Below are positions 14,166 through 49,444 of a stretch of DNA of 64,000 nt, in pieces. Made by a program: the position numbers and the translations under genes. The notes beneath the pieces were generated by a model that was not told the DNA's origin, searched no databases, and worked only from the letters and a program-made list of their open reading frames with translations. The DNA comes from Halobacteriales archaeon YIM A00010 (lineage in GTDB: Archaea; Halobacteriota; Halobacteria; Halobacteriales; Haloarculaceae). The stretch lies in the NCBI GenBank assembly GCA_025041175.1, contig JAKCFJ010000001.1, positions 1,240,001 through 1,304,000 of the forward strand, given 5' to 3'. Position 1 is the stretch's first letter; every line of letters begins with the position of its first letter.

Positions 14166-15608
14166 TCACGCCTGTGGTGGATCGGCAGGAGACCGTTCGC
14201 CCTCGGTTTCCGCGGTCTCGATGATGCGGTCGGCGCACGCATACCCCGCCACGACGCCGCCGTTCAGGCTGCGTTCGGGGTACTGCGCCCGGCTCGCCAT
14301 CCCCGCGTAATAGATCCCCTCGCCCACTGCCTCGCCGAGATCGTAGGGCACGACCATATCCAGGTAGCCGCGCTCGTAGATCGGTGCCGTTCTGGGGTTG
14401 CGCGCGATCCGAACGCTGTTGACCACATCCCGATCGAACCGGGGAAACAGCTCCTCGATCCCCGAGAGCCAGTGATCTGTGACTTGTTTGTCGCTCATTT
14501 GCCAGAGGTCCTCGTTTCGATCCTGCACGTAGCTGGCGACGTACAGCAGGTGTTCGCCGCCGTACCGATCTCGCGGAACGAAGTTCGTGTGCTCGATCAA
14601 CGCGCCAAAGGGCGCGTCGTCGGCGATGTTGAGCCAGTAGGTGTCCATCAACGATTCTTCCATCTCGACGACCGCACACACAGACCCCTGGAAATCGATG
14701 GCACACGGATAGCCGGTCAGCGACTCCAACACGTTTGGCATCGCGGCGACGACCACGCTGTCAACCTCATGAACCGTCGTTCCGTCCTCGCTGTCACCGG
14801 ACTGCGTCCGGCTGTCGTCGGGTTGCACCCGACTGCCCGAGACGCTGTGCGTCTCGCTGCTTGAGGAACGTTGTTCCTCGCTTTCCACGGTCATCGACTG
14901 TACCCGATCGTCGACCGCGAGATCGGTCACCCGCGCGTCGGTGGTGATGTTCTCTCTCCCGACCGCCTCGACGAGCGCGTCCAACAACACGCCGAAGCCG
15001 CCCTCGAGGTAGCCGAGCACCTCCCCCCGGAGGAGATCGCGCTCGCCGCGGAACTTGACCCGCCCGAGCAGCCACGCCGCGCTCACATCGTCTTTCCGGC
15101 TGCCGAATTTCGCGTCGAGCAGCGGCTCGAAAAACGTCTCGTACACGTTCTGTGTGGTGTGCTCGATGGCGAACTCTTTGACTGGTGTGTGCTCGAACGC
15201 CTCCAACCGCTCGTAGGTGTCAAACGACGGCACGCCGCCGCGCACGTCGACATCGAGCGTCAACATCCCCAGCCGGAATTTATCATAAATGCTCCAGTGG
15301 GGAAACGCGAGAATCTCCCACGGCGTGTCCATCGGATAGACGCTGCCCTCGACGTAGTACGCGTTTTTGCCGACGTGCCACTCGATGCGGTCCCCGACGC
15401 CCAACTCCTCGGCAAGCTCCACGATCGTCTGCTCGGATTTCGAGAGGTGGTGATAGAACGCCTCGATGCGGTCACCCCCGGTCTCGTACGTCGCTGCCAG
15501 CCCGCCGACGTCGCTGCCCGCCTCGAACACCTGTACGTCGTGGCCCGCGCGCTGCAGCCGGTAGGCCGCCGCCAGCCCCGCAATGCCGCCACCGACGATG
15601 CCAATCAT
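14166..15608 (-). CDS. flavin amine oxidase-type (protoporphyrinogen oxidase-like) FAD oxidoreductase
   Basis: The 480-residue product starts MIGIVGGGIAGLAAAYRLQ with the Rossmann GxGxxG motif, followed by VFEAGSDVGGLAATYE, typical of the NAD(P)/FAD-dependent amine oxidase superfamily (protoporphyrinogen oxidase, phytoene desaturase relatives). The C-terminal FAD contact is GIYYAGMASRAQYPERSLNGGV. The substrate is unknown. At 14797-14879 the gene carries four back-to-back mini-hairpins that translate in frame into a Ser/Arg/Gln/Asp linker (around residues 245-272) that looks inserted. The ATG at 15608 is the natural start of the FAD strand. Confidence 0.92.
   Translation of the reverse strand: MIGIVGGGIAGLAAAYRLQRAGHDVQVFEAGSDVGGLAATYETGGDRIEAFYHHLSKSEQTIVELAEELGVGDRIEWHVGKNAYYVEGSVYPMDTPWEILAFPHWSIYDKFRLGMLTLDVDVRGGVPSFDTYERLEAFEHTPVKEFAIEHTTQNVYETFFEPLLDAKFGSRKDDVSAAWLLGRVKFRGERDLLRGEVLGYLEGGFGVLLDALVEAVGRENITTDARVTDLAVDDRVQSMTVESEEQRSSSSETHSVSGSRVQPDDSRTQSGDSEDGTTVHEVDSVVVAAMPNVLESLTGYPCAIDFQGSVCAVVEMEESLMDTYWLNIADDAPFGALIEHTNFVPRDRYGGEHLLYVASYVQDRNEDLWQMSDKQVTDHWLSGIEELFPRFDRDVVNSVRIARNPRTAPIYERGYLDMVVPYDLGEAVGEGIYYAGMASRAQYPERSLNGGVVAGYACADRIIETAETEGERSPADPPQA
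14797..14879. repeat. tandem mini-hairpin array inside a flavoprotein gene
   Basis: Four palindromes follow one another: CCGGACTGCGTCCGG (14797-14811), GTCGGGTTGCACCCGAC (14817-14833), CGAGACGCTGTGCGTCTCG (14838-14856) and GAGGAACGTTGTTCCTC (14863-14879), separated by short spacers. The array keeps the reading frame of the host gene. Its CGGAC/GTCCGG unit recurs at 40397-40413. Confidence 0.85.
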
Positions 15609-15681
15609 ACGGAATGATCCGAGCCCGCTCCGTAAGTCGGTTCTCATCCGCGACAAACCTGTTCACGACTGGTCGGTATTC

Positions 15682-38169: not shown

Positions 38170-39022
38170 CGCCACCACTGCCCCTGCGGGCACCCGATGC
38201 GGTGTTCGAGACGTGACCGAACTGGCCGACCACACACCGGACAGCGCGTGCGCTGTTCATCATTTTGATACGATGCGACACCGTTACATGTCTCTGATTC
38301 GTTTCCCATCATGGGATTCTCTTACTGCAGAGGACCCCAGCGTCGGGTGGTACCATCACCCGGCGCGTTTCAACGAACGCGCATGCGTTGCCGCCATGCT
38401 GGCGTCCTCATGTATCGTTCCTTGCCCCATCACACATAAAGGTACTGATGGAATGAGTAATGTTATATCGTACTAACAGCTCGAGCCTTCAGCGGTTACT
38501 CGGACCATACCAACGAGCTACCGACAATCGGGCGTTGCTGCTGCCAAGATAGCACTGGCAGTAATGAATTTCTTGTCGAGAATCACGTTGGTGTTGGCGG
38601 TGCTCGAAGCGATCCGAACAGACCAGTATCTCAGCGACGCTACGGTGAGCACGTTCCCGACAGGACCACCGGCCAGTCAGTCCGTCGAAGCGGTGTGGTG
38701 CGGAGCATGAGTACGATGACCTGCAAACAGGTCACGCTCGCATAGCAGATTGGTCCTGTGTGCGGTCGCGGAAGCGGAGCGGTGCGGTAGCGGAGGCGGA
38801 GCGGTGACCCCACCCACCGCGAGCGGAGTTCCCGCGAGCGAAGCGAGTGGGAGCGAGCGAGTCGCAGCGCGAACGAAGTGAGCGACCGTCTCGCCACGCG
38901 AGCGGCTTTTTTTCGCCCACGTTTTTGCGCGAGGGTGGCCTCCGGCCACCCGAGCGGAAAAAAGGTGGCGGATCAAAAAGGTGGGGCAACGACCTTTTTG
39001 GCTGTCACAGCGAACACGCTCT
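38170..39022. other. gene-poor region upstream of larE
   Basis: About 850 bases without a convincing gene. One short frame at 38564-38710 (48 codons, starting MNFLSRITLVLAVLEAIR) is conceivable but unsupported. The right part, 38761-38985, is the hairpin-bearing repeat. Confidence 0.5.
38761..38985. repeat. dispersed hairpin-bearing intergenic element, copy B
   Basis: Read towards larE on the plus strand: a CG-rich run (GCGAAGCGAGTGGGAGCGAG), GCGGCTTTTTTT, TTTTTGCGCGAGG, a hairpin with GGGTGGCC and GGCCACCC arms (38933-38951), GAGCGGAAAAAAGGTGG (38952-38968), then a second AAAAAGGTGG. Compared with copy A the stem differs on both sides while pairing is kept, while the flanks are nearly identical. 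Confidence 0.8.
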
Positions 39023-40279: not shown

Positions 40280-40396
40280 TCCAGTGCATCCAGTCCGGCG
40301 ATACCGTTCATGAAAAATTATTTCTCTCTTCGTTGACTCGATGGCGTATCGATGACGTTCATCACTCCGCCGGCGATGACCTCCGGCGATAGCGTC

Positions 40397-40441
40397 ACCG
40401 GACTACGTCCGGTTGCTTGCTGAGCTTCGCTCAGCTCTGTC
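40397..40441. repeat. 45-bp mini-hairpin insertion in the S66 peptidase gene
   Basis: ACCGGACTACGTCCGGT (40397-40413) and GCTGAGCTTCGCTCAGC (40419-40435) lie back to back, then TCTGTC. The stretch 40397-40441 is 45 bases, so the frame is kept, but it contains TGA. GTC occurs on both sides of it (40394-40396 and 40439-40441), which might be a target duplication. The first hairpin is nearly identical to one in the flavoprotein gene at 14797-14811. Confidence 0.85.
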
Positions 40442-41010
40442 GCCGTGATTGCCCCATCGAGCGGTAGCGCACGGAACGCACCGCACGTGTTCGAACTCGC
40501 GCTCGAGCGGCTTCGAACGGTGTTTGATCTCGATCCCGTGGTGTATCCCACAGCCCGCCAGGGAGACGAGTTCCTCTCGGCGAACCCGAGAGCGCGGGCA
40601 GCGGACGTTCACGCCGCATTCAAAGATCCGGATATCACGGGCGTGTTCGCTACGATCGGGGGCTGGGAGCAGCTTCGAATCCTGAAACATCTCGATCCGA
40701 CAGTACTACGCGATCACCCCACTCGATTTTTCGGGATGAGTGACAACACGAACCTCGCGCTGGCGCTCTGGAACTGCGAGATCGTCTCGTACAACGGTGC
40801 CCAACTGATGAACGAGATCGCCGTTCCGGGCGAGCTTCCGGAGTACACGGAGCGATACTGCCGACGGGCGTTTTTCGAAGACACGATCGGAGAACTCACG
40901 CCGTCACCGGAGTGGACCGACGAGCCAGCGCCGTGGGGCGATCCGGCGGCCTTCGAGTCACCACCGGCGTACGAACCCAACCCCGGCTGGCGGTGGGCGG
41001 GCAGCGACAG

Positions 41011-41050
41011 CGAGGCGCAACGCGCCTCGGGTAGTCGGTCGCAGTCCGGC
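41011..41050. repeat. mini-hairpin unit within the S66 peptidase coding region
   Basis: CGAGGCGC and GCGCCTCG pair around AAC (41011-41029), followed by a decayed unit TCGGTCGCAGTCCGGC (41035-41050). It encodes an in-frame linker (EAQRASGSRSQSGDL) similar to the one in the flavoprotein gene (SRTQSGDS). It lies between two conserved blocks of the peptidase. Confidence 0.7.
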
Positions 41051-41530
41051 GATCTGCCGGTTACAGGACGGCTCTGGGGCGGCTGTCGGGCCATACTCGA
41101 GTGGCAGCTGGCAACCGAACGGTATCTGCCGGAGCCGGACGAGCTCGACGGCGCGGTGCTCGCCATCGAAACCGCGGAAGATCTCCCCGATCCGACGATC
41201 GTCGCGGGAACCCTCATGTGCTTGGGCGAGCGGGGACTGCTCGAACGGTTCGGGGCGGTGGTCGTGGGCCGAGCGCCCGGTCGGAGCTTCCTCGAAGAGC
41301 CGCCACAGGAAGAGCGAAAGTCCTACCGCAGCCGGGTGTACGACGCCGTCATCGAACAGGTCGAGCGATACAACCCCCATGCTCCGATCGTGTGTGGAAT
41401 CGACTGGGGCCACACCACGCCCATCGCGCCGCTCCCGATCGGCGGCCGCGTCACCGTCGACCCAGGGCAGGAAACGATCATCGTCGAAGCCGCTCACACG
41501 GAAAGCTAGCCGTTCCGCTCGATCACACGA

Positions 41531-46933: not shown

Positions 46934-49444
46934 TCACCCGCGCTGGGTCCACTTGAGGAGAAGCAGCGTGGATTCGAAGAGGACCACCATGGAGAGCGCC
47001 ACGATGATCGGGGCCATGCCAGTTGGATCCGGGTTGGTGATGAACGCCAGACCGGCGAAGCCACCCCAGAAGTACAGTCGCCGATCAGTGAGCCACGACC
47101 GGCTCGTCACCCCCATCATGACGGCGAGCATAATGAACAGGGGGATCTGGAAGATGAGGGCAAAAAAGCCCATCATGAGGAGCATCAGCCCGAACGTATC
47201 GGACAGCCCGAATGCGATTTCGGCGGTCCCCTGGGTGTAGCCCAGAAAGTAGACGAAGATGAGGGGCAGGACCACGAAGAAGGCGAACGCGACACCGAGC
47301 GTGGAAAGTATGAGACTCGTTGGGATTGCAGCGATGTAATACCGCCGTTCACGTGGATACAGCCCCGGCCGCATGAACAGATACGTCTCATAGACGAACA
47401 CCGGCATAGCGATAACGAATCCAGCGAGCGTTGCGACTTTCAGCCGTGCGAGCACGAGCGCGAGCGGGCGATACACCCGGGGCTGAACCACGTCTGTGCT
47501 CCCCAGAGCGAGAATCGAATACCAGATCTCATTGATGAGCCGGTCGGCAAACGGAAACGTGAGTGCGCTCACAATGGCCATGACCACGACGACGACCAAC
47601 ACCCGGCGGACCATCTCTTCGATGTGGGCGCTCAAAGGCATCTCCTGGTCTTCGGTCGGTCCACTCGGAACGAGCGAATCATCCTCTGAACCCGCCTCTG
47701 AGCCCGCAACGTCGGGGGTTGCTACCGTGTCCTTTGTGAGAGTCCCTCCATCCGATTTCCTCGGTTCTCCTGTCTCGGAGGAGTCAGCCGGGGAGGACGT
47801 GCCCGCCGCAGTCGAACTCGTATCGTCTGCTATCGATGTCGAATCCGCACTGGTTGTGGGTGATGATCCGGTGTCTCGATCGTCGTCGTTCCGGCCCGAC
47901 TGAGAGGTCGACTGACGCTTCCACGGTACCTCAGAGACACCACCCATTTGAGACCCTTCGGAGGGTCCATCCGACGCTTCCTCTTCTGAGTGATTTTGTT
48001 CCCGCGAGGACGATTGAGACGCGTCAGTGTCTTGATTTCGTGACGGTGATTGCTCTGTGTCAGAATTCGGATCTCGAGCACCCGCTGGATCTGACTTCGA
48101 CCCTCGATCTCGGGCACTGCGCCGATCCGTATCAGAGAGACGATTCCGCGAACTCGTCAGATCTGAATTCGAGCTCCGATCGCGGGAACTCCTTGGATCC
48201 GACTCCGACTCCGACTCTCGATTCCGAGCACTACGCCGATCCGTATCAGAGGGACGATTCCGCGAACTCGTCAGATCCGGCTTCGACTCCCGATTGTGGG
48301 CGTTCGTTGGACCCGACCCTGACTCCCGATTCCACGAATTCGTCGGGTCTGAATTCGAATTTCGATTGCGGGAGCTCGATGGATCCGACTCCGACCCTCG
48401 ATTCCGTGAACTCGTCAGATCTGAATTCGACTCCCGATTGTGGGCGTTTGTCGGATCCGACTCCGATCCCCGATCTCGGGCACTGCGCCGATCCGTATCA
48501 GAGAGACGATTCCGCGAACTCGTCAGATCTGAATTCGAGCTCCGATCGCGGGAACTCCTTGGATCCGACTCCGACTCCGACTCTCGATTCCGAGCACTAC
48601 GCCGATCCGTATCAGAGGGACGATTCCGCGAACTCGTCAGATCCGGCTTCGACTCCCGATTGTGGGAGTTTGTCGGATCCGACTTCGACCCTCGATCGCG
48701 GGAGCTCGTTGGACTTGAATTCGAGCTCCGATCGCGGGAACTCCTTGGATCCGACTCCGACTCCGACTCTCGATTCCGAGCACTACGCCGATCCGTATCA
48801 GAGGGACGATTCCGCGAACTCGTCAGATCTGAATTCGACCCTCGATCACGGGAGCTCGTTGGACCCGACTTCGAACCCCGATCTCGGGCACTGCGCCGAT
48901 TCGTATCAGAGGGCCGATCCCGGGACCACCCTGTGCCGGCATTGCGGTCCTGGGTGGACGTCGATCCGGAGTTCGTGCCGCGCTCTTGTGAGGCCCTCCG
49001 GTCAGAATCCGCATCACTGCTCCGAGACGACGATCGAGCGCGGTCTCTCGTTCGTCTCGTGTTCTCCGTCTCCCGATCCGATGCAGTCGACCGTCGGCGA
49101 TCGTGTGCAGAGTTCCGAGAACGAGACGCGTCTCGATTCCTCGAACTCGGCGTGGACGACCGTCTCTTTGAAGACGATTCGGTTGTGTCGTCACGACCAC
49201 GAACGTCCGAACGCAGATCGGTCTCGTCCCCACGATCGAAACCATCGTTTGGGGAGTCCGAACCGGAACGGGGAGAATCCTCGTCTAGCTCATCGAAGAA
49301 ACCGGAATCATCGGAGAAGACGAAACTATCCTGATCCCGTGTCTCATCGTCGGATGTATCTTCCCACGAATCATCGCCATCCGCCGGCTCATCGCGGGAC
49401 CTGCGTCCGTCGTCTCCGCCCATTACGGTACTCTGGTATCCCAT
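46934..49444 (-). CDS. tatC: Sec-independent translocase TatC with giant Ser/Arg/Asp repeat N-terminus
   Basis: Residues about 600-836 are a complete TatC: MPLSAHIEEMVRRVLVVVVV (conserved His-Ile-Glu-Glu head), six hydrophobic segments, and FITNPDPTGMAPIIVALSMV. TatC is the receptor for folded, twin-arginine proteins, the dominant export route in haloarchaea. The preceding 600 residues are hydrophilic: an acidic head, then about 26 tandem 12-residue repeats of the type SSRNRxSDTDRR or SSRDRSSNSDLT, then a Ser/Thr/Asp linker. The ATG at 49444 (or 49423) is supported by a TATA-like GATATTTTTG upstream. An internal start at 47641 (MPLSAH) cannot be excluded. Confidence 0.93.
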   Translation of the reverse strand: MGYQSTVMGGDDGRRSRDEPADGDDSWEDTSDDETRDQDSFVFSDDSGFFDELDEDSPRSGSDSPNDGFDRGDETDLRSDVRGRDDTTESSSKRRSSTPSSRNRDASRSRNSAHDRRRSTASDRETENTRRTRDRARSSSRSSDADSDRRASQERGTNSGSTSTQDRNAGTGWSRDRPSDTNRRSARDRGSKSGPTSSRDRGSNSDLTSSRNRPSDTDRRSARNRESESESDPRSSRDRSSNSSPTSSRDRGSKSDPTNSHNRESKPDLTSSRNRPSDTDRRSARNRESESESDPRSSRDRSSNSDLTSSRNRLSDTDRRSARDRGSESDPTNAHNRESNSDLTSSRNRGSESDPSSSRNRNSNSDPTNSWNRESGSGPTNAHNRESKPDLTSSRNRPSDTDRRSARNRESESESDPRSSRDRSSNSDLTSSRNRLSDTDRRSARDRGSKSDPAGARDPNSDTEQSPSRNQDTDASQSSSREQNHSEEEASDGPSEGSQMGGVSEVPWKRQSTSQSGRNDDDRDTGSSPTTSADSTSIADDTSSTAAGTSSPADSSETGEPRKSDGGTLTKDTVATPDVAGSEAGSEDDSLVPSGPTEDQEMPLSAHIEEMVRRVLVVVVVMAIVSALTFPFADRLINEIWYSILALGSTDVVQPRVYRPLALVLARLKVATLAGFVIAMPVFVYETYLFMRPGLYPRERRYYIAAIPTSLILSTLGVAFAFFVVLPLIFVYFLGYTQGTAEIAFGLSDTFGLMLLMMGFFALIFQIPLFIMLAVMMGVTSRSWLTDRRLYFWGGFAGLAFITNPDPTGMAPIIVALSMVVLFESTLLLLKWTQRG
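47987..48931 (-). repeat. 36-bp coding repeats in tatC
   Basis: The minus strand encodes about 26 tandem units of 12 codons (a few of 14) with consensus (T/R)-S-(S/A)-R-(N/D)-R-x-S-(D/N/E)-(S/T)-D-(P/L/R). Larger blocks recur almost identically at DNA level, for example TCAGAGAGACGATTCCGCG or TCAGAGGGACGATTCCGCG at 48135, 48248, 48501 and 48613. There are no spacers of unique sequence. Confidence 0.9.

Follow-up and report, generated by a model that had tools for sequence, protein, structure and literature searches.

A 45-nucleotide double-hairpin insert in an S66 peptidase gene as a probable unit of a dispersed, gene-less element of haloarchaea

The window analysed here, a stretch of 64,000 nucleotides from the genome of Halobacteriales archaeon YIM A00010, contains a gene for an S66 (LD-carboxypeptidase/MccF-like) peptidase whose reading frame is interrupted close to its start. 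A first-pass annotation had described two back-to-back hairpins with an in-frame TGA at this place (40421-40423), and the sequence reads as claimed. The locus raises the questions of what kind of sequence has interrupted the gene, and what has become of the gene. The comparison of sequences suggests, with a probability of roughly 0.8, that the insert is a unit of a small dispersed, gene-less haloarchaeal element that is usually translated within its host gene. The positions of the features are given in Table 1.

Translation from the ATG codon yields MTFITPPAMTSGDSV, followed by TGLRPVAC, the stop codon, and then SSVAVIAPSSG. The frame is open from 40445 to 41509, corresponding to 354 amino acids, and the host protein matches the N- and C-domains of the S66 family in Pfam (PF02016 and PF17676, with E-values of 7e-25 and 5e-18, respectively). 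Within the insert, hairpin 1 is followed by the linker TGCTT, hairpin 2, and the sequence TCTGTC, which extends to position 40441 and precedes GCC (40442) and the GTG codon at 40445. Both hairpins comprise stems of 7 bp without mismatches and loops of 3 nucleotides. The folding energy of the insert region amounts to -38.2 kcal/mol, as compared to -20.7 +/- 2.5 kcal/mol for shuffled sequences (z = -6.9), and none of the 200 shuffles equalled this value.

Table 1. Features of the interrupted S66 gene and further copies of the element in the window
Feature	Position	Strand	Remarks
S66 (LD-carboxypeptidase/MccF-like) peptidase gene, interrupted	40352..41509	+	ATG at 40352; TGA at 40421-40423 in the insert; reopens at GTG 40445
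GTC target codon	40394..40396	+	shared with the empty sites of the closest relatives (alignment)
45-nt double-hairpin element	40397..40441	+	sense; perfect stems; own GTC at its end
Hairpin 1	40397..40413	+	ACCGGAC 40397-40403 / GTCCGGT 40407-40413, loop TAC
Hairpin 2	40419..40435	+	GCTGAGC 40419-40425 / GCTCAGC 40429-40435, loop TTC; contains the in-frame stop TGA 40421-40423
GTG start candidate	40445..40447	+	in frame, downstream of the stop and upstream of the conserved domain
Second element copy in the S66 gene	41006..41053	-	48 nt with both tags; antisense, in frame, stop-free; encodes DSEAQRASGSRSQSGD
Chain of same-family hairpins	14793..14882	+	in FAD-type oxidoreductase-like ORF 14166-15656 (-); antisense, in frame (SEEQRSSSSETHSVSGSRVQPDDSRTQSGD)

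The DNA of the S66 gene was aligned with nine orthologues, six from genomes of the same genus and three from more distant ones. Exactly 45 columns are missing in all nine, and the codons match on both flanks. The closest aligned orthologue, L041 (84% protein identity), reads GGTGACAGC-GTC-GCCGTGATC at the empty site; the target codon is likewise GTC in L040, L042, L043, L044, and L045, and GTT or GTG in L046-L048. Thus, the earlier proposal that a structured mini-element had recently inserted here, for which an empty site in relatives had been named beforehand as the test, is borne out by 9 of the 9 aligned orthologues, and the exact gap agrees with the proposed size of 45 bases, a multiple of three. 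The GTC sequences said to flank the insert are both present; they are to be read differently insofar as the left one is a pre-existing codon and the right one is the end of the element, which places the insert at 40397-40441. Neither of the findings that had been listed as arguments against the proposal was made: no aligned relative has the hairpins, and homology upstream of the GTG codon is clear.

Given that the N-terminus M-F-TPPAM-PGDSVAVIAPSSG is conserved among the relatives (upstream homology M.F.TPPAM.PGDS), the ancestral start is the ATG codon at 40352 and not the GTG codon at 40445. Initiation at the latter costs approximately 17 N-terminal residues; the Pfam S66 model still matches from its position 4, and the first strand of the protein is modelled poorly by AlphaFold2. 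The in-frame stop results from insertion in the rare sense orientation with a stem 2 reading GCTGAGC; sense units elsewhere are often without a stop (VAGLRPAARGALRLAV). As judged from the sequence, the gene may be silenced, read through at the TGA codon, or restarted at the GTG codon. The dN/dS ratio of its own branch is approximately 0.20 (0.071/0.35, derived from pairwise values) versus 0.09 and 0.14 in the sisters, indicating that the gene has been under purifying selection, slightly relaxed, during most of this branch. It would therefore not have been dead for long: either its interruption dates from recent times, or a protein shorter by approximately 17 residues is made from the GTG codon.

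The same gene contains a second copy of the element that the first-pass annotation had missed. On the minus strand, this copy (41006-41053) reads ATC-GCCGGAC-tgc-GACCGAC-TACCC-GAGGCGC-gtt-GCGCCTC-GCTGTC, and 45 nucleotides of it are absent from the aligned S66 relatives. It is probably older than the copy at 40397-40441, as its hairpin 1 has acquired two mismatches. In the AlphaFold2 model of the S66 protein (pTM 0.89), the corresponding residues 190-202 form a loop between two strands and represent almost the sole internal stretch of low confidence. Elsewhere in the window, at 38760-38980, we observed a run of intergenic hairpins, rich in G+C, that ends in a GAGCGGAAAAAAGGTGG-like sequence. 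This pattern is also present at L029 and L035, where it is invaded by double-hairpin units, and seems to represent another dispersed intergenic repeat of greater length. In addition, an array of 36-, 72-, and 114-bp tandem repeats (TRF) is located at 48093-48922.

Eight further loci of the same genome were compared with sister species. In the GH3 glucosidase gene, 216 nucleotides are inserted between CTGTC and GCCG, a site that is empty in two relatives. Empty sites within the same genus were likewise found for the 45-nucleotide insert of an enolase-like gene, for the single unit (45 alignment columns) of a P-type ATPase gene, and for a chain of approximately 3.5 units in the PEP carboxylase gene, the ORF of which stays open for more than 800 codons. 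The chains in a CofC-like gene and in a gene for a secreted protein are missing from at least one sister, and at locus L025 remnants of the element are present in the sisters. Where the comparison is clean, the unit is placed after a GTC or RTC that the empty site already contains, and it adds its own CTGTC. The 5′ tag in named species (n = 68) is CGTC in 44 cases, TGTC in 12, GGTC in 11, and AGTC in one.

The presence or absence of the unit was also followed in two sets of orthologues whose sequences were not chosen by unit presence. The main copy of the Halorubrum acetyl-CoA synthetase gene contains the 45-nucleotide insert in 6 of 17 cases, one of them with decayed stems, and an exact empty site in the remaining 11. 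In Halorubrum lipolyticum, the paralogue L297 of this gene is occupied at the codon that is used in the main copy of other species, whereas the main copy of H. lipolyticum itself, L288, lacks the unit. Of the 26 relatives that were readable at the gene of a beta-CASP exonuclease, 24 are empty and two are occupied between VLVD and DGETR with differing stems; the same site is occupied in Halorussus, Natrinema mahii, and Halomicroarcula. The perfect conservation of stems between Halorubrum species was not counted as proof of selection, since these copies were picked by a pattern requiring near-perfect units; the acetyl-CoA synthetase set, chosen without the pattern, includes one decayed copy. Moreover, we observed that three sister species share the insertion at 1510-1549 of L002 (compared with L111 and L112), their hairpin 2 being wholly different and the coding flank approximately 94% identical; stem replacement and repeated insertion are candidate readings of this difference.

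From reading the copies, the unit can be described as GTC-[7 bp, 3-nt loop]-TGCYN-[7 bp, 3-nt loop]-NCTGTC, and units are chained head to tail at the GTC with a period of 45 nucleotides. Variants with a longer-stemmed second hairpin exist (TAAC..TGATG), and at 1402-1507 of L005 extra hairpins are nested in a second hairpin, that is, inserted inside a unit. Neighbouring units carry different stems; the chains are thus not products of simple duplication. No terminal inverted repeats were found over the unit, and target and element end share GTC alone, which sets the element apart from MITEs. Within its own genome, BLAST revealed 18 matches to the 94-nucleotide region and 42 to the consensus unit, and a covariance model revealed at least 55; the copies were gathered by searches and from targeted stretches, and copy numbers are lower bounds, as no more than 52 candidates were scored per genome, or 15 in the class-wide search. 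The covariance model matches 105 of 116 relatives and, at E <= 1e-6, 323 of 391 haloarchaeal genomes sampled from the class, representing 74 of 86 genera. A search with the exact IUPAC pattern over approximately 85,000 species returned 97 stretches, and among the matches listed (80) all belong to Halobacteria; the exact pattern was not found in viral contigs. The mobile nature of the element, earlier marked as inference, thus gains support from dispersed copies, precise presence or absence at other loci, and a class-wide family, the evidence for movement being comparative throughout, with no transposition observed.

We asked in which context the copies reside. For this purpose, 82 exact copies in named genomes were assigned to coding context by open frame and third-position G+C. 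Supported coding frames contain 65 of these copies, 58 of which lie antisense in phase 0, with the GAC codon in frame. When histidine kinases are left out, the proportion is 44 of 51 (p = 2e-27 against an expectation of 1/6, a value to be taken as indicative, as some copies are orthologous and not independent). The antisense in-frame copies encode approximately DSExxSxSGSRTQSGD, and their host proteins include aconitase, adenylosuccinate synthetase (PurA), MutS, aldehyde dehydrogenase (ALDH), dihydrolipoamide dehydrogenase, AMP-binding synthetase, molybdopterin oxidoreductase, M20 peptidase, CobN, a P-type ATPase, and an ABC exporter. The other frames of many units are also open, and the bias for strand and frame does therefore not arise from stop codons alone; we infer that it reflects targeting to GTC combined with selection, once a unit is in place, for a peptide that is hydrophilic and acidic-compatible. 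Histidine kinases (L145, L154, L163, L176, L178, L206, L217, and others) carry the unit, at times several, adjoining the N-box (..NSVEHGSTGSRTESGDSVEHGSTG..), and stem 2 of the element encodes SVEHG, as does the histidine kinase motif. This motif is possibly the origin or a hot spot of the element.

Copies are also located at intergenic places. In L067, L068, L072, L083, and L092, which represent several genera, the unit resides at one conserved, non-coding-looking place (..GGAGGAAACCGCGCC-GTC..GTT-CACGGCGCGGAG..). This locus, for which no match was found in Rfam, may encode a genuine structured RNA, one of whose stems holds the unit; a first impression that it could be RNase P RNA was not supported by the Rfam search.

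The strong fold, the covarying stems, and the intergenic copies would also be in keeping with a conserved structured RNA, regulatory or involved in processing, in place of mobile DNA. To distinguish pairing in RNA from a palindrome in DNA, we considered the stem positions that the scan pattern leaves free in 62 distinct units. Watson-Crick pairs occupy 424 of 434 such positions (98%), and G-T pairs and mismatches five each, whereas the composition of the columns predicts 225 Watson-Crick and 65 G-T pairs; the stems of the own-genome set are likewise Watson-Crick. The lack of a G-T surplus suggests a constraint on the DNA palindrome, or young copies in which stem pairs change together, rather than RNA pairing. 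As G-U pairs are no more frequent than mismatches, no Rfam family matches the unit at either the E-value or the gathering threshold, most copies lie antisense in unrelated coding genes, and the unit is missing from most orthologues, we regard a structured RNA as very improbable. It is still harder to believe that ribosomes bypass the insert from GTC 40394 to GTC 40439 and thereby make the full-length S66 protein. Take-off and landing codons that are identical and enclose hairpins do recall phage T4 gene 60 and the mitochondrial byps; however, this identity already follows from the insertion rule, and if the inserts were skipped, selection would not keep them in frame across the class, with lengths divisible by three and a single strand and frame preferred. 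A review does not name bypass among the archaeal recoding events that it lists as shown.

As to the mode of spreading, elements of the IS200/IS605 group are placed 3′ of a short fixed sequence, cause no other target duplication, and end in a hairpin. The placement and end hairpin of the haloarchaeal element follow this logic, as would be expected if it were an IS200/IS605-derived, REP- or PATE-like element mobilised by a Y1 HUH transposase, the cleavage site of which lies 3′ of a tetranucleotide beside a hairpin. The link of the Haloquadratum PATEs to IS605-type elements (PMC3119063) and the GTAG or CGTC tags of bacterial REPs (PMC3733652) point in the same direction. Nevertheless, the number of Y1 transposase genes (PF01797) does not correlate with copy number across 92 genomes (Spearman 0.02), nine element-rich genomes are devoid of Y1 genes, the hairpins beside eight sampled Y1 genes do not resemble the element, and bacterial REPs of the CGTC class are not associated with a transposase either (PMC3733652), so that we consider this origin unlikely. 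One could also imagine an origin in place, by template switching or slippage at imperfect palindromes with tandem duplication giving the 45-nucleotide period. Perfectly complementary arms with almost no one-sided changes are what arm-to-arm correction would produce, and stems do differ at one site between species. This scenario, which does not involve a mobile element, appears improbable in view of the linkers GTC, TGCYN, and NCTGTC, which are identical across dozens of genera and loci and for which the empty sites hold no precursor, and of adjacent tandem units with different stems, unlike slippage products.

We therefore return to a dispersed mobile element. Its stems vary between copies yet stay Watson-Crick perfect, and some copies are decayed by point mutation. 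Copies at the same site in different genera sometimes have different stems, and the shared copy in L002 differs in stem 2 between sisters; simple insertion and decay do not explain different stems at shared sites. The element would spread as DNA, probably as a single-stranded hairpin form, and an enzyme supplied in trans would recognise the GTC tag and the hairpins. Most insertions would be tolerated only in frame and antisense, hence these would be the ones that are seen. The S66 insert would be a recent sense insertion that escaped this rule and met a TGA codon, whereby the full-length protein would be lost and at best a shortened protein made from the GTG codon. Going further, we put forward only tentatively that a class-wide archaeal element, mainly an in-frame coding insert, is copied and preserved in the form of a perfect palindrome of DNA by machinery not of the IS200 type, with recurrent insertion into one and the same codon of given genes in different genera.

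Mitochondrial double-hairpin elements of fungi, algae, and sponges are likewise dispersed, mobile-looking pairs of small hairpins, but reside in organelle genomes; to our knowledge, neither a GTC tag rule nor a coding-frame preference is known for them. CGTC-tagged REPs occur in five bacterial phyla and include RPE-4 and RPE-6 of Rickettsia conorii; their stems are 8-9 bp in length with A-T as the first two pairs, their loops comprise 4-5 nucleotides, their tail is CCA, and they mostly form head-to-head dimers (Di Nocera et al. 2013, PMC3733652). The haloarchaeal element resembles them in being a dispersed short palindrome with an unpaired CGTC/TGTC end tag, in lying within genes, as REPs do in some species, and in having no associated transposase. 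In contrast, its stems are 7-bp, G+C-rich, and begin with G-C or A-T, its loops comprise 3 nucleotides, its tails are TGC and NCTGTC, each 45-nucleotide unit contains two different hairpins, and units stack head to tail instead of head to head. By the published description, in which all phyla named are bacterial (PMC3733652), it is thus not a CGTC-tagged REP. With the Rickettsia palindromic elements, to which we liken it by description, the host domain being different, it shares in-frame coding insertions in unrelated functional proteins. Haloquadratum walsbyi harbors SMRs of approximately 80-110 bp with terminal inverted repeats and PATEs with near-terminal palindromes that are related to IS605 (Dyall-Smith et al. 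2011, PMC3119063). They too are small, transposase-free palindromic repeats of a haloarchaeon without target duplication, but neither corresponds to a 45-nucleotide coding unit. A search confined to the open-access literature yielded no earlier account of this haloarchaeal element.

Taken together, these results would extend in-frame palindromic elements, whose reports have so far come from bacteria, Rickettsia among them, to an entire class of archaea. A genome may contain up to dozens of copies, and many copies reside in housekeeping enzymes. The element accounts for unusual low-complexity inserts (SGSRTQSGD) of haloarchaeal proteins, which could mislead annotation, alignments, and trees. 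How palindromes without a transposase spread is an old open question, and CGTC-tagged REPs pose the same gap. Haloarchaea are readily cultured and several are genetically tractable, and the GTC rule, the 45-nucleotide unit, and the present/absent pairs, with clean examples in the Halorubrum acetyl-CoA synthetase and the beta-CASP exonuclease, are directly testable in these organisms.
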